Assembly: GCA_005799525.1 (NCBI GenBank)
Contig: SYGN01000040.1
Span: 1 to 36,043 of the forward strand
Direction: 5' to 3'
Origin: Opitutaceae bacterium
GTDB lineage: Bacteria > Verrucomicrobiota > Verrucomicrobiia > Opitutales > Opitutaceae
Length of the DNA stretch: 36,043 bases
The notes below the pieces were generated by a model. That model was not told where the DNA came from and ran no database searches. It was given only the letters and a program-made list of their open reading frames with translations. Shown here one piece after another: positions 1,627-36,043 of the stretch. The translations under genes and the position numbers were made by a program. Each line of letters begins with the position of its first letter. The stretch's first letter is position 1.

Positions 1627-1748
1627 TGTGCGGCGAGCAACCACCTCATGATCCCTCACGCCCGCCCAAGCCTTCCACCTCACCGACAATCGTTCTTCCG
1701 TTCACTCCGATCCACGTCCTGCCAACCGCTTTCCCGAAATTCCGCGTC

Positions 1749-23021: not shown

Positions 23022-24050
23022 ATGGGCCGCCTAACCTTCCACGATCCACTCTGGCTCCTCGCGCTCCTCGCGTTGCCGCTGATCAGCTGGCTCCGCGGTC
23101 GCCGCAGCGTGCCTGTCTTGCTCGTGCCCTTTGCCGCCGCCTGGCATCGCCCCTCCCTCGCCGCGCCCTCGCGCTGGCCCGTCGGATTGGCGCTCACCGG
23201 CCTCGTCCTCGTCGTCGTCGCCCTCGCCCGCCCCCAACGTGTCGAAGACAAACGCGAGGTCCGCTCCCAAGGCTACGATATCATGATCTCCGTCGACCTC
23301 TCCGGCTCCATGCTCGCGGAGGATTTCGAGAAAAACGGCGAACCCGTCAACCGCCTCCAAGCCATCAAGCCCATCATCCAAGCGTTTATTGAACAACGCC
23401 CCTCCGACCGCATCGGCATCGTCCTCTTCTCCGGCCGCGCCTACACCATGGCCCCGCTCACCTTCGACCACGACTGGTTGTCCCGTCAGCTCGAACGCCT
23501 CAAACTCGGCATGCTGGAAAACGGTACCGCCATCGGCGACGGCCTCGGGGTCGCCCTCACCCGCCTCGAACAAGCAAAACGCCAAGCCGGCGGCCAACGG
23601 CAGGGCGCCTTCGTCGTCCTCATGACCGACGGCGTGAACAACAGCGGCGCCATGACCCCCGAGCAAGCCACCGCCCTCGCCAAGGCCCGCGGCATCCCCG
23701 TCTACACCATCGGTGCCGGCAAAGACGGCTACGTGCCCATGCCCGTCTTCGACGCCAACAACCGCCGCATCGGTCGTCGCATGGTGCTGTCCGACCTCGA
23801 CGAAGCCGCCCTCCGCATCATCTCCGAGCAGACTGGCGGAAAATTCTTCCGCGCCTCCGACATCGACACCACTGAAGCCGCCTTCAAGGCCATCGACCGC
23901 GCGCAGAAAATCGAATTCCAGTCCAAGAGCTACCTCATCACCACCGAACTCTTCTGGTGGCTCGCCGCCCCCGGCCTCGCCGCCCTCGCCCTCGCCGCCC
24001 TCGCCGCCCGCCCCTTGGGAGCGCGGACGGCCCGCCTGCATCCCGCCTGA
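23022..24050 (+). CDS. batA: BatA-like VWA domain membrane protein
   Basis: A 342-residue BatA type protein with two N-terminal membrane segments (about 9-25 and 50-68), a periplasmic or membrane-proximal von Willebrand A domain, and one C-terminal membrane segment (about 307-330). The MIDAS motif is DLSGSM near residue 91, with the later MTDGVNNSG supplying a metal ligand. The start ATG at 23022 (MGRLTFHDPLWLLALLALPL) fits the family. Bat proteins are linked to oxygen or stress tolerance in Bacteroides and Leptospira, though the mechanism is not settled. It lies 62 bases before batB on the same strand. Confidence 0.92.
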   Translation: MGRLTFHDPLWLLALLALPLISWLRGRRSVPVLLVPFAAAWHRPSLAAPSRWPVGLALTGLVLVVVALARPQRVEDKREVRSQGYDIMISVDLSGSMLAEDFEKNGEPVNRLQAIKPIIQAFIEQRPSDRIGIVLFSGRAYTMAPLTFDHDWLSRQLERLKLGMLENGTAIGDGLGVALTRLEQAKRQAGGQRQGAFVVLMTDGVNNSGAMTPEQATALAKARGIPVYTIGAGKDGYVPMPVFDANNRRIGRRMVLSDLDEAALRIISEQTGGKFFRASDIDTTEAAFKAIDRAQKIEFQSKSYLITTELFWWLAAPGLAALALAALAARPLGARTARLHPA

Positions 24051-24112: not shown

Positions 24113-26008
24113 ATGACCTTCGCCACGCCCGAACTTCTCTGGCTCCTCCTCGCCCCCGTCGCGCTACTCGTCTGGGAGCTCACCCGCCGCCGCCGCACCG
24201 CCGGCCTTACGCGCCCGAAAATCCTCCGCGCCGAAGCCGGCTCCTTCGGCCTCCGTTTCTCCGCTCTCAGCTCTCGGCTCTCCACCGCCTCGTCCACCGC
24301 CCGCCCACGCTGCTGGCTTACCTTGGGCCTCGCCCTCGCAATCACCGCCCTCGCCCGTCCGCAATACGGTCGGCTCGAAGAACCCGTCTTCGACCAATCC
24401 CGCGAAATCCTCCTCGCGATCGATCTCTCGCGTTCGATGCTTGCGCCCGACGTCAAACCCTCGCGCCTCGAGCGCGCCAAGCTCCTCATCCAATCCCTCC
24501 TCGAAAAGCTCGAAGGCGAGCGCGTCGGCCTCGTCGTCTTTGCCGGCACCGCCTTCCTCCAAAGCCCGCTCAGCGCCGATTACGAAATTCTCCGCGAATT
24601 CCTCCCCGCCCTTGGTCCCGATTATCTCCCGCAAGGCGGCTCCAACTACGGCGCCCTCCTCGACGCCTCCCTCCAGGCCTTCAGCCACACCAACGCTGCC
24701 GACCGCTTCCTCATGATTCTCAGCGACGGCGAGGCCACCGACGGCGATTGGAAAAAACGCACCGAAGAACTGAAAAATAAAAACATCCGCGTCCTCGGCC
24801 TCGGCGTCGGCACACCCAGTGGTGCCATGCTGCCCGACGGCACCGGCGGCTTCGTCAAAGACGAACGCGGCGCCGTCGTCCTCTCAAAACTCGAAAGCGG
24901 CACACTCCAAGAACTCGCCACCGCCACCGGCGGAATTTACCACGACGCCAGCGGCTGGCTCGACCTCGCCGGCCTCGTCAAAGAAACCGTCGAAGCGGGT
25001 CGCAAGGGTCAGTTCCTCGAGAAGAACACCATCCGCCTCGCCGAACGTTTCCAGTGGCCCCTCGCACTCGGACTCTGGTGTCTCCTCGTGAGTTTCTACG
25101 CCGAATTCCCCGTCCGCCCCCGCCCCCGCGACATCAAGCTCACCCCTCACGTCAAACCACCCACGCCCTCCTCTGCCCCGCGCCCGCTCACCACGGCCAT
25201 GGTTTCACTCGCGGTCTGCTCCTTGGTCATTGGACCTTGGGCCTTGGGCATTAACCCCGCATCGCCCTCCACGCCCGCACCGCCCGCGTCGTCCGACGCC
25301 CTCGCTAAAATCATCGGTCGCGTCGCCGCCGCCGAATCCCGCACCGCCCGCGACTGGGCCGAACTCGGCCGCGAAACCGTCACGTGGGGCGGCCGCCTCC
25401 AATCCGAACAACAACCCATCCCCGAGGGCCCCGTCCGCGACGCCCTCGCCGCCGTCGACGCCGGCGCGAAGCTCGACGCGAAAACCGCCGACTGGCCCAA
25501 GCTCCGCGAAGAACTCGCAGCCCTCTTGAAAAAATCCGAGGAGCAAAAACAGGATCAACAAAAGCAGGACGACAAAGATCAGCAGGACCAGAAGGACAAA
25601 CAGGATCAAAAAGACCAAAATCAGAAAAATCAGGATCAAAAAAAGTCCGACAAACAGGACCAATCCAAAGACCCAAAAGACCCTCAGCAGGAAAAATCCG
25701 ACGAACAAAAAAAACAGGACCAACCACCGCAGGACAAAGACGACAAAGATAAGCAGGGCGAGTCCGCGTTCGGCGACATGAAGAAAAACGAACCCCCGCC
25801 CCCGCCTCCGCCCGAAGACCCCGGCACCCAAAAAGTCGGCGGCAACCCCGAGAAAAAAGCATCCGAGCAACAGCCCGCCGACCCTTCCCTCGCGCTCCCG
25901 CTCCAAAAACTCGAACAGCTCCGCAATCAAGATTCTCCCGCCCATCTTTTTCAAATCATGGAGGGCGAAAAAAAGCCCGCCACGAACACCAAGGGTAAGG
26001 ATTGGTAA
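24113..26008 (+). CDS. batB: BatB-like VWA protein with BatC-like charged extension
   Basis: A 631-residue protein, nearly twice the usual BatB length. Two N-terminal membrane segments (about 8-22 and 65-80) precede a VWA domain with the MIDAS motif DLSRSM near residue 104 and SDGEATDGDW; a third membrane segment is near 318-335 and a fourth near 363-380. The C-terminal part has a helical region (DALAKIIGRVAAAESRTARD) and then a Lys/Asp/Gln tract at about 475-550, a Pro run, and a conserved end (LQKLEQLRNQDSPAHLFQIM) of the kind found at the end of BatC-type proteins. It therefore looks like a BatB-BatC fusion without clear TPRs. Heptamer repeats encode parts of the first loop and of the fourth membrane segment. 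The start at 24113 was chosen over upstream codons that overlap batA. Confidence 0.9.
   Translation: MTFATPELLWLLLAPVALLVWELTRRRRTAGLTRPKILRAEAGSFGLRFSALSSRLSTASSTARPRCWLTLGLALAITALARPQYGRLEEPVFDQSREILLAIDLSRSMLAPDVKPSRLERAKLLIQSLLEKLEGERVGLVVFAGTAFLQSPLSADYEILREFLPALGPDYLPQGGSNYGALLDASLQAFSHTNAADRFLMILSDGEATDGDWKKRTEELKNKNIRVLGLGVGTPSGAMLPDGTGGFVKDERGAVVLSKLESGTLQELATATGGIYHDASGWLDLAGLVKETVEAGRKGQFLEKNTIRLAERFQWPLALGLWCLLVSFYAEFPVRPRPRDIKLTPHVKPPTPSSAPRPLTTAMVSLAVCSLVIGPWALGINPASPSTPAPPASSDALAKIIGRVAAAESRTARDWAELGRETVTWGGRLQSEQQPIPEGPVRDALAAVDAGAKLDAKTADWPKLREELAALLKKSEEQKQDQQKQDDKDQQDQKDKQDQKDQNQKNQDQKKSDKQDQSKDPKDPQQEKSDEQKKQDQPPQDKDDKDKQGESAFGDMKKNEPPPPPPPEDPGTQKVGGNPEKKASEQQPADPSLALPLQKLEQLRNQDSPAHLFQIMEGEKKPATNTKGKDW
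24263..24283 (+). repeat. Period-7 tandem repeat in batB (three units)
   Basis: Three consecutive units of GCTCTCN (N = A, G, C) lie in the loop between the first two membrane segments of the BatB-like protein. Seven bases is not a multiple of three, so each unit is read in a different frame. Confidence 0.7.
25223..25250 (+). repeat. Period-7 tandem repeat in batB (four units)
   Basis: Four units of the form TTGGNCN, the first being TTGGTCA, encode part of the fourth membrane segment (SLVIGPWALGI) of the BatB-like protein. TTGGTCA is, as I recall, one of the heptamers of the cyanobacterial STRR repeats. Confidence 0.75.
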
Positions 26009-26013
26009 CGCCC

Positions 26014-28581
26014 ATGCGCCTCCCACTCGTTCTCATTCTCTTTCTCGTTCTCCGCTGCCTCACTGCCGGCGCGCTGGCCCAAGCCGTCCGCTGGGAGCCC
26101 TCCGACGCCGACCCCGCCGAGCTGATTCTTATTTTTGAAAACTGCTCGCCCAATGGCGAACCCCGCCTCCCCGCCATCGAGGGCGTCCAGGCCGATCGCA
26201 CCGGCCAAGGCACGCGCACGGAGTTCAATAATTTCCGCCGCACCGATTACGTGCAGCTCACCTACCGCCTCCGCACGCGCTCGAACACTCCCGTCTCCAT
26301 TCCCGCCTTCGACGTCAAAACCGACAAAGGTGACCTCCGCGTGCCCGCTTTCAAGACCGCCGGGGCCGCCCGCAATCCTTCCCTCGACTCCGCCGCCTCT
26401 TCGCAACTCGTCCCCGGCAACACCACCCTCTGGGCCGGCGAGGTCTTCCCGCTCCTTTACACACTCGACGTCAACCGCCGTAATTTCAGCCAGCTCGAAA
26501 CCAACCCCGATTGGAGCGCCAGCCCCCTCGTCGCTGAAGACTGGTCCAAACCTGAACCCGGCGAACGCGTCATCAACGGCGAAGCCAAACTCAACATCGT
26601 CTACCGCACCCGCGCCTACGCGAAGAGCCCCGGCCCACTCGCGCTCAACCCCGTCACCCAAATCGTCCGCCTCCAAACCGGCAGCATCGGCTTCGGTCTC
26701 TTCCAGCAGCCGCGCCTCGAGCGCCTTTCCGTCGAGTCCGCCCGACCCGCGCTCACCATTCGCGCCCTCCCAGCCCCCGCGCCCAGCGGCTTCGGCGGCG
26801 CCGTCGGCCAATTCAAACTCGTTTCCAAAGTCGTCCCCGAAAAAGCCGCCGTCGGCGAACCCGTCACGTGGACCCTCGAACTCAGCGGCACCGGCAACTG
26901 GCCCGACCTCTCCGGCCTCCCCCAACGCGACGTCTCCAACGATTTCCAAGTCGTCCAACCCAAAGCCAAACGCACGCCTTCCGACGGCAAGCTCTTCGAA
27001 GTCACCCTCGCCGAAGACGTCGTCCTCGTGCCCACCAAACCCGGCACCTACTCACTCGGCCCCGTCAATTACGCCTACTTCGACCCCAAAACCGGCACCT
27101 ACAAAAGCATCTCCGCCCCGCGCACCACCGTCACGATCACCCCGCCCGCCGCACCGCAATTTAGCGTCACTCCAGGCTCCGGAGCCCAGACCCCAGACCC
27201 GATCGCCTCCTCCCTCACCGCCGCGTCCCCTCCCGCGGCGCCAAAACCGCCGATGGCGACCCCCGCCGCTCCCGCGGGCATCCCGCGCGATCCCCTCCCC
27301 GGCACCGGCACCGCGAGCGCCCCTCTCTGGAGCCGCACGCTGCTCCTCGGTCTCCTGTCTCCTGCCGCCGGTCTTCTGTTTTTCTGGACTTGGCTCGCCA
27401 TCCGCCGCGCCCAACAAACCGACCCTCTCCGGCCGCGCCGCGAAGCCCGCAGCCGTTTAGCCACCACGCTTGCCCAACTGCGCACCTCCGGCGATTCGAC
27501 CTCGCCACTCGCAACGCTCAACGCTCAACCCCAGCCGCAATCGCTGCTGCTGCGCTGGCAACACGACGCTGCCATCCTGTGGCAACTCACCCACGCCGCC
27601 CCGCCCGCCTCCGCCCTTCTCAGCGCTGGGGACGCAACGCCCTCGTCGCGTTCCTCGCCCGCTCCCGACACTTCGGCATGGGCCACTCTCTGGCTCGAAA
27701 GCGACCGCACCCTCTACGGCCCCGCCTCCGCTCTCCCGTCCGATTGGATCGCCCGCGCTGATGCCGCCCTCACCGCGAAACGCGTCCCCGGATTCAACCC
27801 TCTCCGCCTCTTCCTCCCCCGCAACCTACTCCCCTTCGCCGCGCTCCTCCTTCTCGCACTCTTCCTGCCGGCCCCCCTCCCCGCCGGCGAACCGGCCGCC
27901 GACTACACTGCCGGAAAATTCTCCGCCGCCGAAAAATCGTGGCGCGAAGCCCTCGCCAAAAACCCCACCGACTGGACGGCCCACCACAACCTCTCGCTCG
28001 CTCTCGCCCAGCAAGACAAACTCGGCGAAGCCGCCGCGCATGCCGCCGCCGCTTTTGTCCAAAATCCCAGCCATCCCGCCGTTCGCTGGCACCTCGCCCA
28101 CGTCTCCGAAAAAGCTGGCTACGCCCCGCCCCCACTCGCTCCGTTCCTCCGCCCGACCGCCCAACAAACGCTCGCCCAACTCGCCTCCCCCGCCACGTGG
28201 CAACACCTCCTGCTCGCCGCCACGTGCCTCACCGCGCTCGCCCTCGCCGGCCTCCTCGCGCGCACCTATGGCCATCGCTCGCGCGCCGTCGCTGTCACCG
28301 CATTCACGCTACTCCCCTTGTCCCTCCTCCTCGCCGTCGCCGCGATCGTCAGCTGGCGAACCTACGCCACCACCGCCGACGCCTCCGCCGTCGTCGCATG
28401 GCGCGCCGGCACGCTCCGCTCGATTCCCACGGAAGCCGACACCACGCAAAAAACCACCCCCCTCCCCGCCGGCAGCGTCGCCCTCGTCACCAAATCCTTC
28501 CTCGGCTGGCAGCAACTCTCCTTCGAAAACGGCCAGACCGGCTGGGTGAGAAAAGAAGAACTCGTCCCCCTCTGGAAGTAG
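26014..28581 (+). CDS. batD: BatD-BatE fusion protein
   Basis: An 855-residue protein joining BatD and BatE functions. The signal peptide (1-23) comes from in-frame hexamer repeats. The BatD beta-sandwich region runs to about 395, with GTGNWPDLSGLP and FQVVQPKAKRTPSDGKLFEV as family marks. A Pro/Ala linker and a membrane segment follow (about 430-455). A second membrane segment near 600-620 is followed by TPR-like helices (YTAGKFSAAEKSWREALAKN, about 632-705), two more membrane segments (about 730-770), and a C-terminal SH3 domain (QQLSFENGQTGWVRKEELVP) as in BatE. The ATG at 26014 lies 5 bases after the batB stop, so the two are probably translated together. Heptamer repeats at 27185, 27350 and 27513 encode linker and membrane residues. 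Confidence 0.9.
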   Translation: MRLPLVLILFLVLRCLTAGALAQAVRWEPSDADPAELILIFENCSPNGEPRLPAIEGVQADRTGQGTRTEFNNFRRTDYVQLTYRLRTRSNTPVSIPAFDVKTDKGDLRVPAFKTAGAARNPSLDSAASSQLVPGNTTLWAGEVFPLLYTLDVNRRNFSQLETNPDWSASPLVAEDWSKPEPGERVINGEAKLNIVYRTRAYAKSPGPLALNPVTQIVRLQTGSIGFGLFQQPRLERLSVESARPALTIRALPAPAPSGFGGAVGQFKLVSKVVPEKAAVGEPVTWTLELSGTGNWPDLSGLPQRDVSNDFQVVQPKAKRTPSDGKLFEVTLAEDVVLVPTKPGTYSLGPVNYAYFDPKTGTYKSISAPRTTVTITPPAAPQFSVTPGSGAQTPDPIASSLTAASPPAAPKPPMATPAAPAGIPRDPLPGTGTASAPLWSRTLLLGLLSPAAGLLFFWTWLAIRRAQQTDPLRPRREARSRLATTLAQLRTSGDSTSPLATLNAQPQPQSLLLRWQHDAAILWQLTHAAPPASALLSAGDATPSSRSSPAPDTSAWATLWLESDRTLYGPASALPSDWIARADAALTAKRVPGFNPLRLFLPRNLLPFAALLLLALFLPAPLPAGEPAADYTAGKFSAAEKSWREALAKNPTDWTAHHNLSLALAQQDKLGEAAAHAAAAFVQNPSHPAVRWHLAHVSEKAGYAPPPLAPFLRPTAQQTLAQLASPATWQHLLLAATCLTALALAGLLARTYGHRSRAVAVTAFTLLPLSLLLAVAAIVSWRTYATTADASAVVAWRAGTLRSIPTEADTTQKTTPLPAGSVALVTKSFLGWQQLSFENGQTGWVRKEELVPLWK
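26026..26049 (+). repeat. In-frame hexamer repeat in the BatD signal peptide
   Basis: Four units of CTCNTT (26026-26031, 26032-26037, 26038-26043, 26044-26049) encode the hydrophobic core of the signal peptide as Leu-(Val/Ile/Phe) pairs. Related pyrimidine hexamers occur before moxR (about 20880-20898). Confidence 0.5.
27185..27198 (+). repeat. Period-7 repeat in batD linker (two units)
   Basis: Two exact CCCAGAC units encode part of the Pro/Ala-rich linker after the BatD sandwich region. It is short and could be chance alone, but it fits the other heptamer sites. Confidence 0.4.
27350..27377 (+). repeat. Period-7 repeat in batD membrane segment (four registers)
   Basis: GTCTCCT occurs twice, then a diverged unit GCCGCCG, then GTCTTCT, all in one 7-base register. 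They encode the membrane segment after the BatD linker (LLGLLSPAAGLLFFW). Confidence 0.65.
27513..27529 (+). repeat. Period-7 repeat in batD cytosolic linker
   Basis: Two exact AACGCTC units plus AAC, preceded by the related CACTCGC in the same register, encode a linker (LATLNAQPQPQ) between membrane segments of the BatD-BatE fusion. Confidence 0.5.
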
Positions 28582-28745
28582 CGTGCGGCCTGCCCAAACG
28601 GAGCGGTGCTTTCCCCAGCGCCGATACTCCCCTGCCCTCCGTTCGCGCCCCCTTTCTCTACCGCCGTCACCGCGCGGGCCGAGTTCAGAGCCTGCACGTC
28701 AAGCAACCCCAGAAAATCCCCCACGGCATCAAAGGGCGCGCACCC

Positions 28746-28766
28746 TTAGTCATCAGTCATTAGTGA
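28746..28766. repeat. Period-7 repeat forming the NUDIX C terminus and stop
   Basis: On the plus strand three units TTAGTCA, TCAGTCA and TTAGTGA are consecutive. On the minus strand they code for the last residues (SLMTDD) and the TAA of the NUDIX gene. A small CCGCGC-GCA-GCGCGG hairpin follows at 28769-28783. The 164-base gap between batD and this gene otherwise shows nothing. Confidence 0.65.
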
Positions 28767-29318
28767 TTCCGCGCGCAGCGCGGCTGTCTTCCTGACCATC
28801 CTCGCCATCGACTCCTCCGCGTTGAGTAACGTCACCCGCGAGACCTCCACCCACGCGAGATCCTTCGACTCGCTTGAAATCACCATCGGTTCATGCGGGT
28901 CCGCCTCGAGCATAAAGCGCAGATCGTAGTGATCGTGCCCCGGCTCCGTCTTCCGCGCCGGTATCCCATGCCGGTCCACGTCAAAAATCTCCGCCCTCAC
29001 CGCACGCACGTTGACGAGCCCACTCTCTTCGGTCGCCTCCCGCAGCGCCACCGCCAACAAATCCGGATCGCCATCCGCGTGCCCACCGAGCTGCAGCCAC
29101 TTCCCCAATTTCCGATGGTGCGTCAGCAACGTCCGCGTCCGGTCCGGACTCACGATCCACGCCGATCCCGTCACATGCCCCGGCCCACACGTCCGCTCCA
29201 AACAATCCACCTCTGCCTCCACAAACGTGATCGCGGCCGCGACCATCTCCGCTTCATGCGCATCCGCTACCCGCTCCGCATGTTTCCTGAGCAAAATCAA
29301 AACCGCGTTTCGGTGCAT
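28746..29318 (-). CDS. NUDIX hydrolase
   Basis: A 190-residue NUDIX protein, hydrolysing a nucleoside diphosphate linked to another group. The NUDIX box runs GHADGDPDLLAVALREATEE, with REATEESGL matching the REUxEExGU core; the first Glu of the box is replaced by Pro. The N-terminal part (MHRNAVLILLRKHAERVADA) is helical. The ATG at 29318 was chosen; the frame extends to 29408, but that part is a CCGTG repeat within the upstream gene. The gene start overlaps the end of the LOG gene by 22 bases. Three heptamer units (28746-28766) form the last codons, including the stop. The substrate is unknown. Confidence 0.85.
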   Translation of the reverse strand: MHRNAVLILLRKHAERVADAHEAEMVAAAITFVEAEVDCLERTCGPGHVTGSAWIVSPDRTRTLLTHHRKLGKWLQLGGHADGDPDLLAVALREATEESGLVNVRAVRAEIFDVDRHGIPARKTEPGHDHYDLRFMLEADPHEPMVISSESKDLAWVEVSRVTLLNAEESMARMVRKTAALRAESLMTDD

Positions 29319-29986
29319 AAATTCTCCGCGTTTTCTTTCAGCTTTCCGTGGTTTCCGTGCGTTCCGTGTGTTCCGTGAGCCACTCTGATTCCGCATTCTC
29401 CCGCACACCGCGTCTCAAACCACTTCGGCTCCGCCTGCACGCGCGCCGACGCTTCGATCTGCGCAAACACCTCCGGCACCGTCGCCGCCGTGCGATACAG
29501 CTCCATGTTCGACGGCTTGAAAAATTTCTCCGCGAGCATCCGCTCAAACAGCTTCACGAGATCGTCGTAGAACCTATCTTGATTCAAAAACACACACGGC
29601 TTCTTCACGATATCGAGCTGCCGCAGCGTGAGAATTTCCATGATTTCCTCCAGCGTGCCCCAGCCGCCCGGCAGCGTCACGAACGCGTCCGCCCGCGCCT
29701 CCATCAGCAGCTTTCGCTCCCGCATCGTCACCACACTGATGAGTTCATCCGCCTCAGGGAACGCCAGCTCGCGCACCTTCATAAATTCCGGAATCACGCC
29801 GACGACCTTTCCGCCCTTCTCCTTCACCGCCCGCGCCACCGCTCCCATTAACCCAGTCTTCCCGCCGCCGTAAACGAGCCCCCACCCGCGCGCCACCAAC
29901 TCATGCCCCAGCTCCGTCGCCGCCGCATAATACTTCGCATCGAGCCGGTCGCTGGAGGAACAGTAAACGCAAAGCTGTTTAGTCAT
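29297..29986 (-). CDS. LOG family protein (TIGR00730), lysine decarboxylase-like fold
   Basis: A 229-residue member of the LOG (cytokinin riboside 5'-monophosphate phosphoribohydrolase) family, which cleaves ribose-phosphate from nucleoside monophosphates. The hallmarks are VYCSSSDRLD at the start, GWGLVYGGGKTGLMGAVA (about 40-57), and the catalytic PGGWGTLEEIMEILTLRQ (about 107-124). The start at 29986 (MTKQLCVYCSSS) was preferred to a GTG or ATG five codons upstream. The core ends near residue 190. A tail of about 36 residues follows that includes HGTHGTHGNHG, encoded by a period-9 TTCCGTG array at 29344-29377, and the gene then overlaps the NUDIX start. The tail is not part of the family fold and looks like read-through into a repeat. 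Confidence 0.9.
   Translation of the reverse strand: MTKQLCVYCSSSDRLDAKYYAAATELGHELVARGWGLVYGGGKTGLMGAVARAVKEKGGKVVGVIPEFMKVRELAFPEADELISVVTMRERKLLMEARADAFVTLPGGWGTLEEIMEILTLRQLDIVKKPCVFLNQDRFYDDLVKLFERMLAEKFFKPSNMELYRTAATVPEVFAQIEASARVQAEPKWFETRCAGECGIRVAHGTHGTHGNHGKLKENAENLCTETRF
29344..29377 (+). repeat. TTCCGTG repeat, period 9 (four units)
   Basis: TTCCGTG recurs at 29344, 29353, 29362 and 29371, exactly 9 bases apart. Because 9 is a multiple of 3 it encodes a repeating His-Gly-x motif in the minus-strand LOG protein. Confidence 0.8.
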
Positions 29987-30055
29987 GAGTGAGGGCCCCA
30001 CCGATGACGACCATTCCCTCCGGACAAAAGCTCAGAATCACCTTTCACCTCAGCC

Positions 30056-30082
30056 ATCCGTGTCTATCCGTGTTCATCCGTG
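30056..30082 (+). repeat. ATCCGTG repeat, period 10, spanning the gluQ start codon
   Basis: ATCCGTG recurs at 30056, 30066 and 30076. The last unit contains the GTG (30080) that opens the gluQ frame. It is followed by GTTAAAAAT, as at the mog copy. Confidence 0.8.
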
Positions 30083-30943
30083 GTTAAAAATCCTCCCCCC
30101 TACCTCGGCCGCCTCGCCCCCTCGCCGACGGGCCATCTCCACCTCGGCCACGCTCGCACATTTTGGCTCGCTGCCGAACGCGCCCGCGCCGCCAGTGGCG
30201 AACTCCTCCTCCGCAACGATGACCTCGACGCCCTCCGCTTCCGCCTCGATTTCGTCGCCGCCATGCTCGCAGACCTCCGCTGGCTCGGCTTCACGTGGCG
30301 CGAACCCGTGGTCACGCAAAGTGCCCGGCTGCCCCGTTACCGCGCCGCGCTCGCCGCACTCCACGCCGCCGGCCTCATCTTCCCCTGCACGCGCACGCGC
30401 CGCGATGTCCTCGAAGCGGTCTCCGCTCCTCACGAATCCGCCGCCACGCCCGCCCCCGACGATGCCCCCCTTTACCCGCCGCGATTCCGCCCTCCGCTCG
30501 ACGCACCCCTGCCACCGCTCGGCTCCGTCATCGCCGTGAACTGGCGCTTCCGCGTCCCCGACGGCGAAGAAATTTCCTTCCACGACGCCCGCTTCGGACC
30601 CCAACGCGCCGTCGCCGGTCGCGACTTCGGCGACTTCCTCGTCTGGCGCAAAGACGACGCCCCCAGTTACCAACTCTCCTGCGCCGTCGACGACGCCGAG
30701 CTCGGCATCACCGAAGTCGTCCGCGGCGCCGATCTCATCCGCTCCACTTTTCGGCAACTCCTCCTCCTCCGCGCCCTCGGGCACATCGCCCCCGCCTACT
30801 ACCACGCCCCGCTCATGCTCGACGACCGCGGCGAGCGCCTCGCCAAACGCCACGACGCCCTCTCCCTCCGCACCCTCCGCGCGCAAGGCGTGACTCCCGC
30901 CGAAATCATTGCCCAATTCCGCACCGCCGCCCCCACCCCCTAA
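30080..30943 (+). CDS. gluQ: Glutamyl-Q tRNA(Asp) synthetase
   Basis: A 287-residue truncated glutamyl-tRNA synthetase paralogue that charges glutamate onto queuosine-34 of tRNA(Asp). The HIGH-like motif is HLGH (21-24) in APSPTGHLHLGHARTF, and the KMSKS-like motif is near residue 253 (ERLAKRHDALSL). The anticodon-binding domain is absent, as expected for this family, and its length agrees with E. coli YadB. The zinc site looks degenerate: the family CxC (CTCTR) is CTRTR here, and no later Cys matches. The start is GTG at 30080, inside a CCGTG repeat; no in-frame ATG lies before the HLGH motif. It is divergent from the LOG gene, with 93 bases between them. Confidence 0.88.
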   Translation: MVKNPPPYLGRLAPSPTGHLHLGHARTFWLAAERARAASGELLLRNDDLDALRFRLDFVAAMLADLRWLGFTWREPVVTQSARLPRYRAALAALHAAGLIFPCTRTRRDVLEAVSAPHESAATPAPDDAPLYPPRFRPPLDAPLPPLGSVIAVNWRFRVPDGEEISFHDARFGPQRAVAGRDFGDFLVWRKDDAPSYQLSCAVDDAELGITEVVRGADLIRSTFRQLLLLRALGHIAPAYYHAPLMLDDRGERLAKRHDALSLRTLRAQGVTPAEIIAQFRTAAPTP

Positions 30944-30975
30944 CGCCCCAATCACCCTTCATGCCGTTCGTCTCT

Positions 30976-30998
30976 CTCTGTGCCTCCGTGTCTCCGTG
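30976..30998 (+). repeat. CTCCGTG repeat, period 8 (three units)
   Basis: CTCTGTG at 30976, CTCCGTG at 30984 and CTCCGTG at 30992 are 8 bases apart, followed by GTGAAAAAT. It lies in the gap between gluQ and mog, 30 bases before another, period-10 array. Confidence 0.65.
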
Positions 30999-31027
30999 GT
31001 GAAAAATGATTCTCTGCCTCCGATTTT

Positions 31028-31054
31028 ATCCGTGTTCATCTGGGTCCATCCGTG
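31028..31054 (+). repeat. ATCCGTG repeat, period 10, just upstream of mog
   Basis: ATCCGTG at 31028, ATCTGGG at 31038 and ATCCGTG at 31048 are 10 bases apart, followed by GTTAACAAAT. The last unit contains an in-frame GTG (31052) six codons before the mog ATG. Confidence 0.75.
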
Positions 31055-31069
31055 GTTAACAAATTTCCC

Positions 31070-31600
31070 ATGACCGTCCCCAAAATCGGCATCCTCAACA
31101 TCTCCGACCGCGCCAGCGCTGGGATCTACTCCGACGAACCCGGCCAGGCCTGCCTCGCCCTCCTGCGCGAGTGGGTCATCACCCCCTTCGAGACCGACTA
31201 TAGAATCATCCCCGACGAGCGCGCCGTCATCGCAGCCGAACTCCGCCGCATGGCCGACGAATCCGGCTGCTGCCTTGTCGTCACCACAGGCGGCACCGGC
31301 CCCGCCCCCCGCGACGTCACGACCGAGGCGACGCTCGCCGTAATCGAAAAAGAACTACCCGGCTTCGGTGAGCTCATGCGCGCCACGTCTCTCCGCTACG
31401 TCCCCACCGCAATCCTCTCCCGCCAAACTGCCGGCATCCGCGGCCGCACCCTCATCGTCAATCTCCCCGGTCGCCCCAAAGCCATCCGCGAAAACCTCGA
31501 GGCCGTTTTCCCCGCGATCCCCTATTGCCTCGACCTCATCGGCGGCCAACGCCTCGAAACCAACGAGTCCGCGATGAAGGTCTTCCGTCCGAAATCCTAA
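31070..31600 (+). CDS. mog: Molybdopterin adenylyltransferase (Mog/MoaB family)
   Basis: A 176-residue MoCF_biosynth domain protein that adenylates molybdopterin before molybdenum insertion. Family marks are GILNISDRASAGIYSDEPG at the start, TTGGTGPAPRDVTTEAT (about 73-89) and the C-terminal NLPGRPKAIRENLEAVFP. The ATG at 31070 (MTVPKIGILNISDR) was chosen over the in-frame GTG at 31052 that belongs to a CCGTG repeat; the GTG start would add six residues. The gene follows gluQ by 126 bases of repeats and may share its transcript. It supplies the cofactor needed by MOSC-type and other molybdenum proteins; no structural molybdoenzyme other than the MOSC protein is in the window. Confidence 0.9.
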   Translation: MTVPKIGILNISDRASAGIYSDEPGQACLALLREWVITPFETDYRIIPDERAVIAAELRRMADESGCCLVVTTGGTGPAPRDVTTEATLAVIEKELPGFGELMRATSLRYVPTAILSRQTAGIRGRTLIVNLPGRPKAIRENLEAVFPAIPYCLDLIGGQRLETNESAMKVFRPKS

Positions 31601-31623
31601 GTACCAGGGGCTTTCCAACCCAT

Positions 31624-31728
31624 GTCAGTCCTCACTGACGCAACCGCACCAACACTCGGTTGGTCGTGCGGGCCGAACCGGCAACCTGAGTGGCTCCCGT
31701 TCGTCGGACCGGCGGCATTCCTGCCGCC
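31624..31728. other. Cluster of three hairpins between convergent genes
   Basis: GTCAGT/ACTGAC pair at 31624-31639 with loop CCTC. CCGCAC (31644-31649) and CAAC (31650-31653) pair with GTTG (31659-31662) and GTGCGG (31666-31671). GGCGGCA/TGCCGCC pair at 31711-31728 with loop TTCC. None has a U-tract. The region lies between mog and the reverse-strand membrane protein gene and may serve as a bidirectional 3' end or be repeat-derived. Confidence 0.4.
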
Positions 31729-31758
31729 GCCCGCGCCACGCCCCCGCTCACCAGCGCC

Positions 31759-32121
31759 CTACCCCCCCCGCGGATTCGCCCACTCCACCGGGAGCACCGA
31801 CGCCGGCCCCACGATATAGACGCGGTAATAGAGCCAGAAAATCACCAGCCCGAGCATCAGTAAAAAAAATAGCTCGCCCAACCCTCCCCACCGCTGGCGA
31901 CTGCTCCGCTGCATCCAACTCACGAGTAACCCGATCGCCGGCGCCACCACGAAACCCACCAGCGATCCGCCAAAAATCACCATCCCCATAATGGCCAGCG
32001 TCCGCAGCAAAACATCGTCGATCATCTTTGCTTTGTAGCTCACCAACTCGACGCACAGATTGAGCAGCAGCAGACAGCACGGGAGCACGTAGTAATGACG
32101 GACAACATTCGGATTTTTCAT
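31759..32121 (-). CDS. Small hypothetical membrane protein
   Basis: A 120-residue integral membrane protein of no family I recognise. Three hydrophobic segments are visible: VLPCCLLLLNLCVELVSY (about 10-27), a long one at about 39-64 (GMVIFGGSLVGFVVAPAIG), and ELFFLLMLGLVIFWLYYRVY (about 82-101). The second-third loop is basic (MQRSSRQRW), which suggests it is cytosolic. The start ATG at 32121 (MKNPNVVRHYY) was chosen because the longer frame upstream overlaps the DUF5069 gene on the other strand. The gene is divergent from DUF5069, with 99 bases between starts. Third codon positions are less GC-biased than its neighbours, but the membrane pattern supports a real gene. Confidence 0.65.
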   Translation of the reverse strand: MKNPNVVRHYYVLPCCLLLLNLCVELVSYKAKMIDDVLLRTLAIMGMVIFGGSLVGFVVAPAIGLLVSWMQRSSRQRWGGLGELFFLLMLGLVIFWLYYRVYIVGPASVLPVEWANPRGG

Positions 32122-32220
32122 GGCGCAGATTGACTCTCTCCGAGACTCACACCCACTCAACTCCTTCTTCGGCTCCGCCGAATTTTCCGCAACCAAACCA
32201 TCAAGCCAAATCGTCCATCC

Positions 32221-32667
32221 ATGATCAACTATTCCACTCCCGATCTCTCGCAACACCCGCCCCGCAGTCTGCGCGTGCGCATCGGCGGCTACGCCCACCT
32301 CGCTCGCCTCCTCGATAAGGCCCGCGCTGTCATCGCCGGCAAAGCCGGCGATTTCCACTACAACTGCCCACTCGACAAACTGTTCTTCACTTTCACCGGC
32401 ATCACCGAGGACGTCATGCTCGCCGAAATCAAAACCGGTAAAACCGACCTCCAAATTTTAACGTGGGTCAACGAGCGGTCAAACCGCGCCCCGCACGAGG
32501 TCATCGCTTGGTCCGCTTGGTTGGAGCAAGTCGGCCCCGGCGGTGCCGAGGGCCACGAGTGGGCCGCGAGCGTCATCAAGGGCAACAAGTCCGAGCGCGA
32601 CGACATCCGCTCGTTCGCCGATCTCCTCGATTTCGACGATTACCACAGCTACGGCGGCAAAGCCTGA
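32221..32667 (+). CDS. DUF5069 domain protein
   Basis: A 148-residue protein of the DUF5069 family, common in Verrucomicrobia and Planctomycetes. Family-like segments are PRSLRVRIGGYAHLARLLDK (about 14-33), CPLDKLFFTFTGI (about 49-61) and VIAWSAWLEQVGP (about 93-105). It has no signal peptide or membrane segment, so it should be cytosolic. No function is established for the family. The ATG at 32221 fits the family start. It is followed by a strong intrinsic terminator at 32722-32750 and is likely a single-gene unit. Confidence 0.82.
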   Translation: MINYSTPDLSQHPPRSLRVRIGGYAHLARLLDKARAVIAGKAGDFHYNCPLDKLFFTFTGITEDVMLAEIKTGKTDLQILTWVNERSNRAPHEVIAWSAWLEQVGPGGAEGHEWAASVIKGNKSERDDIRSFADLLDFDDYHSYGGKA

Positions 32668-32721
32668 TCAGAGTCGGGCAGATTCTCTGACCCGCCCTGA
32701 AAAACCCTTCGCAGCCCCAAC

Positions 32722-32750
32722 GGGCCGGTCGCCCGACCGGCCCTATTTTA
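32722..32750 (+). terminator. Intrinsic terminator after the DUF5069 gene
   Basis: GGGCCGGTCG (32722-32731) and CGACCGGCCC (32734-32743) form a perfect GC-rich hairpin followed by TATTTTA. It starts 54 bases after the stop codon. Confidence 0.75.
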
Positions 32751-32813
32751 TGCAGCACCCCAAGGGCGGTTCAAAGACCCTGCGCTACGCTGCCCGCCGC
32801 GACGCTCCCCCGA

Positions 32814-33188
32814 TCATAGCTCGGTATACTTCTCCGAACGTCCCTTCGCCTTTTCCACCGGATATTTTTTTACGTTCGCGATCATCTTCGCCTCGATCGA
32901 CGCCGCGACATCGAGCCCCGTCGCATTCGCAAACTCCAGCGCGTAGACGACCACATCCGCCAATTCGTCCGCGATTTTCTGCCGCTTGACCGCATCTTGC
33001 ACGATGGCCTTCGACGCCTCCGGGGTCGCCCAAAGAAAGTGCTCCATCAACTCACCTGCCTCGGCCGCCAGCGCCATGCTCAGGTTTTTCGGAGAGTGAA
33101 ACTGCTCCCAATCCCGCTCGCGCACAAAGGCGAGCACGCGGGTTTTTAGTTCTGCGACAGTTGTGGTGGAATCAGTGAGCTCGGCCAT
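32814..33188 (-). CDS. MazG-like nucleotide pyrophosphohydrolase
   Basis: A 124-residue all-alpha NTP pyrophosphatase of the MazG/RS21-C6 (dCTPase-like) group, which removes non-canonical or excess nucleoside triphosphates. The metal-binding pattern is seen in LAAEAGELMEHFLW (about 40-53, E-x-x-E type) and DELADVVVYALEFAN (about 74-88, E-x-x-D type). The N-terminal helix carries RERDWEQFHSPKNL, typical of this subgroup. The start is the ATG at 33188 (MAELTDSTTT). It is convergent with the DUF5069 gene, and the strong terminator lies between them. It is likely active as a dimer. Confidence 0.9.
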   Translation of the reverse strand: MAELTDSTTTVAELKTRVLAFVRERDWEQFHSPKNLSMALAAEAGELMEHFLWATPEASKAIVQDAVKRQKIADELADVVVYALEFANATGLDVAASIEAKMIANVKKYPVEKAKGRSEKYTEL

Positions 33189-33517
33189 GGGAGGACCATG
33201 GCAAACCGCACAGCGTCACGCAATCTTCACTGACACAAAATAGTTTCCGCTTGGCAGATCGGCTGCGTTAGCGAAACTACACTTGTTCCAATGACCGCGT
33301 CCCTTCAACGTCACCACAGCTCTGCTGGCACTTCGCTCACGAAGGCCGAGCAGCCGCGCTGCGTCGCGAGGCGGCCGGTTGTCATTTCCCATTGGAATAA
33401 ACAATCCGCCGCGGGCTTCACCCACTAAACCATCCGCTTTCACGGAATGCGTTTAGTCCCGAAGTCCGGAGGCCCCCCGCCCCCGAGGAAAACGCACCCG
33501 TTTTCATTTTTCCTCCC
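33189..33517. other. Intergenic region between divergent MazG-like and Hsp20 genes
   Basis: A 329-base gap that should contain the promoters of two divergent genes. I see no clear sigma-70 boxes, CIRCE element or ROSE-like hairpin. A minus-strand frame of 75 codons with a GTG start (33216-33443) is possible but has no recognisable family, and its first half looks non-coding; the C-terminal TLKGRGHWNKCSFANAADLP is slightly more protein-like. Confidence 0.3.
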
Positions 33518-33925
33518 ATGCACACGATCATCTACCCGCTGAATCCTCGTACGCGTAGCCCAGCCGCCGAGCCGACGTCGCACGTCGCGTTCCGGCAACC
33601 CAACTACGACTACCTGGAACATTCCGACACCATTACACTCGTCGTCTACGTGCCCGGGGTGGATGCCGCCGGCGTCGAAATCGAAGCCCGCGGCTCCGAC
33701 CTGACTGTGACTGCAAAAAAGTCCCACTTCGTGCGGGTCAACTGGCAGTCCCTCCATCTAGAGACCGCCCAACGCGCCTATCGACTCCGCCTGCGGCTCG
33801 GCTCCGGTTTCGACTACACCTCAATGCAGGCCGAAATTCACAACGGCGTTCTCAGCGTGACGCTGGCCAAGCGACTCTCCGCCACTGCTGCCAATGCGCC
33901 CCATCAACGTCGCGTCGCGGCGTAA
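33518..33925 (+). CDS. Hsp20/alpha-crystallin family small heat-shock protein
   Basis: A 135-residue small heat-shock protein, an ATP-independent holdase. The alpha-crystallin domain runs from about 30 to 120: YLEHSDTITLVVYVPGVDAA at the start, LTVTAKK in the middle, and the hallmark IHNGVLSVTLAKR near residues 107-119 (family G-V-L-x-V/I-x-x-x-K). The N-terminal arm and C-terminal tail are short, and the usual I-x-I tail motif is not present. The ATG at 33518 (MHTIIYPLN) was chosen. A bidirectional terminator lies downstream. It is probably induced by stress, but no heat-shock element is visible. Confidence 0.85.
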   Translation: MHTIIYPLNPRTRSPAAEPTSHVAFRQPNYDYLEHSDTITLVVYVPGVDAAGVEIEARGSDLTVTAKKSHFVRVNWQSLHLETAQRAYRLRLRLGSGFDYTSMQAEIHNGVLSVTLAKRLSATAANAPHQRRVAA

Positions 33926-34053
33926 GGGTTCCCTTTCGCGACGACGACGGCGGCGGATCGCCCGGGAGACGGGAGCGGAGGGCTGCCCTGTGCCTCAGCG
34001 CCACCGCCACCGTCGGGCAAAGTTCACTTCACGCTCAATCGCGAAAACAAAAA

Positions 34054-34092
34054 AGGCCGCACCTCAAAAAGGTGCGGCCTGAATTTTTTTTT
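34054..34092. terminator. Bidirectional intrinsic terminator between Hsp20 and MFS genes
   Basis: AGGCCGCACCT (34054-34064) and AGGTGCGGCCT (34070-34080) pair perfectly over a CAAAA loop. On the plus strand a run of nine T follows (34084-34092). On the minus strand the other side reads TTTTTGTTTT. It can therefore end both the Hsp20 transcript and the convergent permease transcript. Confidence 0.92.
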
Positions 34093-34127
34093 GGGCTAGG
34101 CGTCCAACGCCGGACCACGACGCAGCG

Positions 34128-35720
34128 TCAACTGGCGGGCTTCTCAGCCTCAGCGAGCGTGATGGTTTTGTAACCGCCGGTGCTCTTAAAATAGAGCAAC
34201 AGGCCCAGGTAGATCAGTGCCATCACGGCCGGAATGTAGGAATCAGCCTTGAGCGTCGCGCGATCGCCAGCTTGGTCGGCGGCGATGATCGCCTTGTGTG
34301 CAGCGGTCTTGTCCTTGGCCTCTTTGGCTTCGGCCAGTTTCTTACCGTCGATCGGCACCGCCTCGAAACCGAGGAACTTCGAGGGCGCCGCCGCTTTCAC
34401 CTGCGCGTACACTGCGGGACTCGACACTTGGAGGGCCTCAGCAGCATACTTGTCCTTGCCGAAGCCGAGTCCGGGACCACCGATCAATCCGGCGGACAAC
34501 ATGCCGACACCACCCATAATGGAGATGGCCACGGCACCGGTGCGCGGGAAGCGGTCGGATGCGACCGCCAACATGGTCGGCCAGAAAAACGTTTTGCCGA
34601 TGGCGTAGATCGTCAGCGCGACGAAAGCCATACCCACCGTTTGCACGCCACTCGTCATCTGCAAACCGACGCAGGCAAAGACGGAGCAGACCAACAGCAG
34701 CGCGACCGGCGAGAGACCAAGCTTGGTCTCGATAAAGTGGGCGCAAAAACGCAGACTGAACATCACCGTCGAAGTCCAGATGAGCAGCCATTTACCCTGC
34801 TCGGACGAGAACATATTGCCGGTAATATTCGCAATCCATCCGTCGGTGCCCAGCTCGACCGCGCCCACGAGGGCGTGCGTGATGAACAACACGAAAAGCA
34901 CGACCGAACCGATGGAGAATTTGGTCAGCACGCCCACCCCAATCAACAAGGCCAGGCCAACCCCGTAGCCCACCGACTCTGGGAAACTCGCCATGCCAAA
35001 CAGCGAAGCCAGCGGTCCGGAGACAAACATGCTCAGAAGATAGCAGGCGACGGCGGCCCCGATGAGGCCCACATCCTTGAGCATCTCGCCCAAGTTCGCA
35101 CCCTTCTGTGACGCTTCCGATTTCGGCATGTGCTGGCCGAGGAACATGAAACCGTAAATGACCGTCGGCACGAGGTAGAGGGCGAGTTGCACCTTCCAAT
35201 GGACGTTCATCTTGTCGTCTAGCACCCAGCCGACGGCGGCACCGGCCACAATGCCAGCCGGCCAACTGGCGTGAAGGATATTGAGAAAGTGCGTACGGTT
35301 CTTCGGAAAGAGCGTCGCCACGAGCGGATTCGCCACGGCTTCCAGCGTCCCGTTGGCAAAGGCAAAAATAAACATGCCGATGGTCAGCATCTGATAGGCG
35401 TTCGCCGGGGTGTTCGCCATGAACGTGACCAGCGCCGACAACACGTGCAGCGCAAAAGCCGCGATCACCAGCTTGCTGTAGCCGATTTTGTCGCAGATGA
35501 CTCCGCCGATAATAATTCCGAAGCAAAAGCCGGTGAATCCGGCGCCGCCGATGGCGCCCAGTTGCGTGGCGGTGAAGCCAAACTCGGAGCCCCAGTTGTC
35601 GAAAATACCGCCGCGGATGCCGAAGCCCATGCCGGCGGCGAGGATGGCCATAAAGCCTGCCCAAAGGAGGCGTTTAGCGTTGGGCGCGATGCCCTCATTG
35701 CTGACGTGTTCGTTGCTCAT
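34128..35720 (-). CDS. MFS permease, sugar (FucP-like) type
   Basis: A 530-residue major facilitator with about 12 membrane segments, most like sugar:proton symporters of the FucP/GlcP side of the family. Evidence includes [20 protein letters not shown] (second-half motif of segment 4), and [16 protein letters not shown], which parallels the family N-x-x-H-x-x-x-x-x-G segment. Between the last two membrane segments there is a polar insert of about 75 residues (roughly 425-500), rich in Ala and Lys ([18 protein letters not shown]), which is longer than usual. The ATG at 35720 ([14 protein letters not shown]) was chosen. It is convergent with the Hsp20 gene. It may supply sugar to the pathway at the other end of the window, but that is only inference. 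Confidence 0.88.
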
Positions 35721-36043
35721 AGATGTCGATTAGCGTGGGTTGATGTTGGGGAGAAAATTGCTCTACGCCCCCGCATGGCACGAGCGGTCGCTCGCAAAAG
35801 CGAGTGATCCAAGCCGGGTGGCGGGGTGCGTTGCAGTGGGGCGGAAGGCAATCGACGGAGAAGTTGAGCGGCGGGCCCGCGCTCGGCAAGGGCGCAGTTT
35901 GGCTGATCTTTGCAACGTGTGTCCTCGAGAGGCTTAGAGAGGCCGATGCCGTCGACAGCTCAGTGCCGAGTGCAAAACCAAACGGTGAAGCGTGTTTTCA
36001 GGCGTGTCGTCGCGTGTCTCAGCCCTCAGCTCCCAGGCCTCAG
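35721..36043. other. Right-end intergenic region with two repeats
   Basis: A 323-base stretch with no convincing gene. It holds the presumed promoter of the MFS gene (no clear boxes seen), a degenerate family A palindrome at 35788-35804 (CTCGCAAAAGCGAG core, in place of CTCGCAAGCGAG), and a heptamer repeat at the very end. Confidence 0.5.
36018..36043 (+). repeat. Period-7 repeat at the window end
   Basis: Units of the form CTCAGCN recur in a strict 7-base register (36018, 36025, then the diverged CCCAGGC at 36032, and CTCAG at 36039). The array may continue beyond the window. Confidence 0.65.

Follow-up and report, generated by a model that had tools for sequence, protein, structure and literature searches.

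Heptanucleotide repeat arrays in the bat operon of an Opitutaceae bacterium and their recurrence at one BatB site among its relatives

The DNA analysed here, called the window throughout, is a stretch of 36,043 nucleotides (contig SYGN01000040.1, assembly GCA_005799525.1) from an Opitutaceae bacterium of the Verrucomicrobiota, one contig of a 343-contig, 4.7 Mb genome. It carries a bat operon in which short tandem arrays with a repeat unit of seven bases are found. By Pfam, the gene series reads moxR-like, DUF58, VWA (batA), VWA (batB) and BatD with TPR, followed by a NUDIX gene on the opposite strand. The initial annotation had claimed seven period-7 loci, numbered S1 to S7 below; related loci carry L numbers and genomes G numbers. 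Arrays were called with a strict lag-k scan (14 bases, at most 2 mismatches), with a longer setting of the same scan (21 bases, 4 mismatches) and with Tandem Repeats Finder (TRF; score at least 30). The genes and arrays are as follows.

23022-24050, plus strand: batA-like gene (Pfam VWA)
24113-26008, plus strand: batB-like gene (Pfam VWA) with a C-terminal extension read, from its place, as a fused BatC
26002-28581, plus strand: batD-like gene (Pfam BatD and TPR), residues 600-859 similar to separate BatE-like open reading frames (ORFs; phmmer)
28746-29408, minus strand: NUDIX gene (Pfam NUDIX), its stop codon inside a heptamer array (ORF end)
24257-24285, plus strand: array S1, unit CTCAGCT, near BatB residue 53 (TRF and strict scan; solid)
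25220-25253, plus strand: array S2, units TTGGTCA / CCTTGGG, at the BatB hotspot near residue 376, encoding LVIGPWALGI (TRF and strict scan; solid)
27185-27200, plus strand: array S3, unit CCCAGAC, 2.3 perfect copies in a BatD linker (TRF; short)
27350-27379, plus strand: claimed array S4, GTCTCCT (TRF; weak)
27501-27533, plus strand: array S5, unit CTCAACG, near BatD residue 506 (TRF and strict scan; solid)
28744-28769, plus strand: array S6, unit TTAGTCA, at the 3' end of the NUDIX gene (strict scan; solid)
36018-36043, plus strand: claimed array S7, CTCAGCC, degenerate (TRF; cut by the contig end, so that no comparison is possible)

TRF returned 45 rows over all periods in the window. Six of the seven claimed sites were among its period-7 rows (24258-24282, 25221-25249, 27185-27200, 27350-27379, 27512-27529 and 36018-36043, with 15542-15560 in addition), and the site at 28746 was not among them. 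The strict lag-7 scan found five arrays, at 24258, 25228, 27179, 27507 and 28748; 40 dinucleotide shuffles of the window averaged 0.3 and reached 4 at most. With the same scan, the other non-codon periods 5, 8, 10, 11 and 13 gave 0, 1, 1, 1 and 0 arrays, and the codon multiples 6, 9 and 12 gave 5, 4 and 3; when up to 3 mismatches are allowed, lag 7 yields 8 places, 6 of them within 24257-28769. The loci at 24257, 25220, 27501 and 28744 are retained as solid, in a set that goes beyond the shuffles, whereas that at 27185 is short, that at 27350 behaves as coding sequence and that at 36018 is degenerate and truncated. S4 was rejected as an array: the strict scan does not call it, and in L029, L003, L004, L006, L007 and L009 the stretch aligns gap-free, in the manner of ordinary conserved coding sequence. 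The placement given earlier was borne out, with two sites within batB and three within batD, and the NUDIX ORF does end within S6. A further degenerate TTAGTCA-like heptamer pair (matching TTRGTCA, 2 mismatches) is present at 29979-29992.

To place these arrays in the family, those of the window, L003-L036 and 20 further loci (55 in all) were mapped onto the window's proteins; for locus copies held in two collections one per pair was removed, here and in the partner counts below, and L092 and L133, from one genome, were both kept. A hotspot lies at BatB residues 345-383, where 15 of the 49 readable loci carry period-7 arrays, 12 of these 15 outside the window's genus. Between residues 340 and 390, 17 period-7 arrays occur in 15 loci, compared with 0, 0, 1, 0 and 0 arrays of periods 5, 8, 10, 11 and 13. 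Seven different units occupy this site: TTGGTCA, TATCCGG, TTTCCGG, GATTGCC, CTCTCGC, GGGAGCA and CCGGAGG. On a 47-row tree of the BatB core (hotspot excluded; L029, L030, L034, L092, L099 and rows shorter than 150 residues left out; 22 of 44 inner branches weakly supported), with 16 array labels made up of the 15 called loci and L003, labelled by eye, parsimony requires at least 11 changes in array presence. The unit labels also require 11, and so no unit-to-unit change is needed. Protein selection for the period is rejected, since both the units and the encoded peptides differ at one site. The earlier suggestion that the period is a property of the DNA, and not of the protein, is upheld by these different units at a homologous site in different species, and arrays within bat coding sequence are indeed present in several genera of the family.

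In the protein alignment, the last BatB helix is succeeded by a conserved EFPVRPRPR and then by the hotspot, which takes the form of a variable linker and a hydrophobic run, often with A-x-A. Read by eye, this segment resembles a signal peptide in mid-protein, ending in A-x-A in many relatives. Free-standing BatB-like ORFs (326-380 amino acids from stop to stop) at 12 loci of other groups or phyla lose similarity at window residue 292-336, and the hotspot is located just past the end of the free-standing BatB of other phyla. By its place, the remainder of the window's BatB would be a fused BatC. The sole significant match of this tail is L055 (E 1e-18), itself from Opitutaceae, the next matches having E 0.04 and 0.3, so that the BatC identity is not given by sequence similarity. 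Cleavage at the signal-peptide-like segment of the apparent BatB-BatC junction might split the fusion into two proteins. The window's BatD likewise resembles a fusion of BatD with BatE, with residues 600-859 similar to stand-alone BatE-like ORFs of 252-282 amino acids in L041, L044 and L046 (phmmer; E 2e-10 for L044 and 2e-9 for L041), and fused forms of this type also occur in L039 and L040. Across the 55 loci, a second, smaller array cluster at BatD residues 494-506 involves 7 loci. The batD-batE junction was considered as its cause and dropped, because the BatE-like similarity begins at about residue 600; only the arrays at BatD 593, 622 and 624 (L032, L104 and L100) are near that start.

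Alignment with relatives reveals one length difference in whole heptamers, of the kind that the initial annotation had anticipated. Between shared borders, S6 measures 174 bases in L003 and 20 in each of the window and L086, a difference of 154 = 22 x 7 bases, and the extra DNA of L003 is mostly readable as heptamer copies. Given that two relatives have the shorter form, the difference appears to be a gain in L003. The possibility that the arrays are ordinary conserved protein sequence applies to 27350; S1, S5 and the BatB site vary among the aligned relatives. S1 is common to the window and L004, with equal length and flanks, and L003 and L005 have an array-free stretch that is 9 bases shorter. 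The S2 array aligns without gaps across the window, L003, L004 and L005; S3 is also present in L003 and nearly so in L029. At S5 the window and L004 share the unit CTCAACG; L006 has TTCAACT there and L007 has CTCAGCC/CTCAGCT. In the batA-batB gap, L003 and L005 carry a TTGGTCC array, L004 carries a degenerate array resembling TTAGACA, and L006 has no array. Two small ORFs in L006 (9995-10692, between batD and the NUDIX gene), which the window lacks, resemble on inspection by eye an antitoxin and a toxin of the PIN type.

Array density in the bat region was compared with that around control genes, whose loci were fetched like the BatD loci from the same family (f1 only: 21 of 30 for IF-2, 18 of 30 for FtsK). 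The BatD loci hold 26 period-7 arrays in 151,699 bases, at 14 of 30 loci, against 3 in 97,686 bases (3 of 21 loci) for IF-2 and 0 in 63,578 bases (18 loci) for FtsK. A paralogue control, the protein at 1548-5543, which is a member of a many-membered family, gave 0 in 73,788 bases (13 of its 24 loci used), bringing the three control sets to 3 arrays in 235 kb versus 26 in 152 kb. The difference in array-bearing loci (14 of 30 for BatD, 3 of 39 for IF-2 and FtsK) has a Fisher p of 4e-4, uncorrected for relatedness. The window's genus, with 9 of the 30 BatD loci including the window, supplies 16 of the 26 arrays, three of them being fragments of a single long array in L079, whose DNA is that of L003, and the other 21 loci supply 10.

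Period counts in a wider sample point the same way in the bat loci. In 32 of these (486,861 bases, without L029 and L030), the strict scan found 60 period-7 arrays, the long array of L003 being counted three times among them, and 10, 8, 16, 9 and 2 arrays of periods 5, 8, 10, 11 and 13; at the longer setting these numbers become 39 and 0, 1, 6, 0 and 0. In 79 stretches from eight genomes there were 40 period-7 arrays and 14, 28, 16, 5 and 9 of the other periods, a sample that leaves out the bat stretch L133, which is counted with G011 below. With genes called by a simple purpose-made model, 20 of the 40 arrays in the sampled stretches are outside called genes, versus 11.6% of bases, and 17 of the 60 in the bat loci, versus 10.8% of bases. 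The excess of period 7 is clear in the bat loci, in G005 (7 arrays in 58 kb, and 0 of period 8) and in G011, and weaker in G012. For G011 and G012, both single-contig relatives sampled over 200 kb each, we counted 9 and 9 period-7 arrays, 3 of the 9 in G011 coming from L133, which was picked for its bat genes, and 2 and 6 of period 8; the longer setting gave 8 and 5 for period 7 and 0 and 0 for period 8.

Many arrays have a second array nearby on the other strand. Scoring as a partner any stretch no more than 200 bases away whose reverse complement agreed at 14 or more of 16 positions, and counting mutual partners twice, we found an inverted partner for 31 of 118 period-7 arrays, versus 0.4% of 2121 control draws. 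Direct partners were found for 21 of the 118.

Taken together, the arrays appear to belong to an established class, the heptanucleotide simple sequence repeats of bacteria, and not to a new gene system. PMC4692102 describes heptamer repeats as over-represented in many bacterial genomes, and cites an earlier proposal, from a 2007 study, that ties heptamer slippage to polymerase contact. Their presence in a verrucomicrobial genome, which had seemed surprising at first, is less so because of this over-representation. The same paper reports GGGAATC in Xanthomonas and GGGGA(C/T)T in Nostoc, with 2-26 units and an intergenic bias; in Xanthomonas campestris pv. campestris two repeat sites lie close by on opposite strands in 70 cases of 186 patterns, and repeat length and sequence vary between the same genes of relatives. 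The arrays described here resemble these in period, intergenic bias, opposite-strand pairs and variation among relatives. They differ in that the Xanthomonas and Nostoc repeats use one G-rich, quadruplex-forming unit, whereas here the units are diverse, few have runs of three or more G or C, and one site is intragenic; no unit of the sampled stretches is of the GGGNATC type with G runs. Marine Beggiatoaceae carry direct repeats of TAACTGA (PMC4679880), mostly just upstream of start codons and with a proposed role in translation, and two Cyanothece strains compared there differ in small changes that are mostly 7-nucleotide steps. Both sets are direct heptamer repeats, but the Beggiatoaceae use one unit, mainly before start codons.

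The short tandemly repeated repetitive (STRR) heptamers of heterocystous cyanobacteria, reportedly described by Mazel in 1990 and Vioque in 1997, likewise have a period of 7 and an intergenic bias. TTGGTCA is presumably one of them. The arrays share with STRR the tandem arrangement of short repeats, but differ in having many units and a coding hotspot. A kinship with the cyanobacterial repeats, which the label STRR-like had implied, is not supported, no cyanobacterial genome having been searched: only the period and, presumably, one unit are shared. In the hoxW promoter region, an STRR is noted in PMC2670836 as able to form a hairpin. We found no report of heptamer repeats in Verrucomicrobia in the open-licence library searched. 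We have not met in print either such a variety of units at a single coding site or the placement of that site at an apparent gene fusion, no literature search having been aimed at that pair.

We consider it fairly probable, with real room for doubt, that the arrays are heptanucleotide microsatellites which arise through strand slippage, seven bases at a time, sometimes with hairpins as the template, and which are kept where constraint is weak. Slippage in seven-base steps would make the arrays, the choice of 7 over 5 or 8 lying outside this explanation, and hairpin-templated copying (template switching), probably at some sites only, would yield the inverted partner arrays. The arrays would then persist where sequence matters little, at gene ends, in intergenic gaps and in a few linkers. 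The bat operon may be rich in such weakly constrained places, the main one being the stretch after the last BatB membrane helix, where an apparently fused BatC-like part would need only a loose linker and a hydrophobic, signal-peptide-like segment.

Several observations weigh against this explanation. Gaps of exactly 7 number 0 to 4 per comparison of the window with six relatives, and the gap-length spectra of these comparisons contain too few gaps for a peak at 7 bases to emerge. Across 40 stretches of the window's own genome (518,006 bases), the strict scan gave 14 period-7 arrays, 3 of them from L062, which was chosen because of a known array, and 11 of period 8, with 4, 4, 1 and 2 of periods 5, 10, 11 and 13 and 39 and 30 of the codon multiples 6 and 9; at the longer setting, periods 7 and 8 gave 7 and 6. 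The genome-wide refuting condition of the initial annotation, no excess over periods 6 or 8, has a mixed outcome: period 7 leads period 8 clearly in the bat loci, at 60 versus 8, and only slightly in the own genome, where period 6 outnumbers period 7. Several of the 11 period-8 arrays are by eye CT-rich or GA-rich runs, and period 8 is nearly as common as period 7 in this sample because of CT-rich runs such as those in L058 (7734-7777 and 15278-15314). No excess appeared in small samples (63 to 80 kb) of G001, G006, G014 and G031, where period 7 compared with period 8 as 0 to 2, 0 to 0, 3 to 4 and 1 to 3, and the lead of period 7 is unclear in four of the eight sampled genomes (the window's own, G014, G031 and G001). 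Inverted partners are not special to period 7, because periods 8 and 10 have some (7 of 43 and 9 of 37 arrays, with 0 of 26 for period 5 and 0 of 16 for period 11). Hairpins are confined to a subset of the sites, since fold energies at the BatB site are on average no lower than upstream (mean z -0.17 versus -0.29, 49 loci). The low-complexity charged tail of BatB (about residues 470-600) has no mapped array in the 55 loci; tolerance alone thus fails to predict array sites, as this tail appears loosely constrained. Slippage leaves over, above all, this empty tail, the small period-7 excess of the own genome and a biased vocabulary of units.

This vocabulary is one argument for a different origin, in which units are copied within and between genomes by gene conversion or by a small mobile repeat, similar to repetitive extragenic palindromes (REP) or miniature inverted-repeat transposable elements (MITE), and then drift. 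Two arrays of one genome have identical units in 4.9% of 268 pairs, compared with 1.5% for arrays of different genomes and 0.16% for random heptamers; the same-genome value is reached in 10 of 2000 label shuffles. Such non-random units are not expected under pure local slippage. The frequent units AATGACC, AAGGACC, AACTCTC and AATGACT lack runs of three G or C. TTGGTCA triples are patchy: of 387 genomes in the phylum, 13 have them (4 have a reversed control), with 81 exact overlapping matches (46 + 35) in G012 and 54 in G234, and an exact search found none in the own genome. The frequency of inverted pairs also fits copying. However, no common flanking sequence was noticed at the sites read, no systematic search for one having been made, and many units are mixed in a single genome, as in L004, which has six arrays with six units within 9 kb. 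The equal length and flanks of S1 and the gap-free alignment of S2 also tell against copying, which we regard as possible but rather unlikely. A nearly perfect 154-base TTGGTCA run is found in L139 (16868-17021) of the single-contig relative G012, and GTAGCGA/GTAGCGG, with a similar CTACCCG on the other strand, recurs on three contigs of the own genome (L109 13883, L113 13134 and L075 1930), a hint of a genome-specific vocabulary.

Selection might instead keep the inverted pairs, if the arrays act as RNA or DNA hairpins that serve as terminators, as the 3' ends of mRNAs or as a brake where BatB meets BatC. Long hairpins are predicted in L008 (6780-6950), L155 (2590-2775), L133 (1705-1850) and L027 (6405-6640, directly after batD), and by eye inverted arms flank the hydrophobic segment in seven BatB loci (L035, L107, L089, L027, L013, L097 and L100). 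Most BatB loci nevertheless lack a significant hairpin, with z below -2 at 6 of 49 sites versus 3 of 48 usable controls and z +1.67 at the window's own site. These z-scores lead us to reject the idea that the BatB site generally has a conserved hairpin, and a hairpin function for the arrays is improbable. We are equally doubtful of a dedicated process, other than plain slippage, that would write seven-base units at reused places and copy them into inverted partners, rewriting the BatB-BatC junction with a fresh heptamer in different lineages.

Phase variation, in which the gain or loss of one heptamer in batB or batD would shift the frame and switch the complex off or on, is highly improbable. 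A unit that is not a multiple of 3 would suit such a switch, and a paper on the phase variation of HMW1A in Haemophilus (PMC8262952) speaks of heptanucleotide, 7-bp tandem repeats. Like the arrays of phase-variable contingency loci, those described here are tandem and changeable in copy number; the coding ones, however, are short and imperfect, and no on/off alleles were seen with one genome per species. The BatD matches of at least 25 bits among those listed are stop-free, a weak test at one genome per species, and the BatB segments were chosen stop-free and hence cannot reveal a frame-shifted allele. Chance low complexity of a GC-rich coding strand, to which the closeness of period 8 to period 7 (11 to 14 arrays in the own genome, 28 to 40 in the 79 stretches) lends some colour and which does hold for S4 and perhaps S7, is hardly credible for the set and is rejected as its sole cause by the shuffles, the control periods, the control genes and the BatB hotspot.

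The repeat is of a known kind, found in a bat-operon setting that makes testing possible. A coding site with at least 11 changes of heptamer state in one family, beside controls that are nearly array-free, is a natural series for testing both the period and the place. It also illustrates how a process at the DNA level, independent of selection on the protein, can furnish linker and membrane sequence at a gene fusion.

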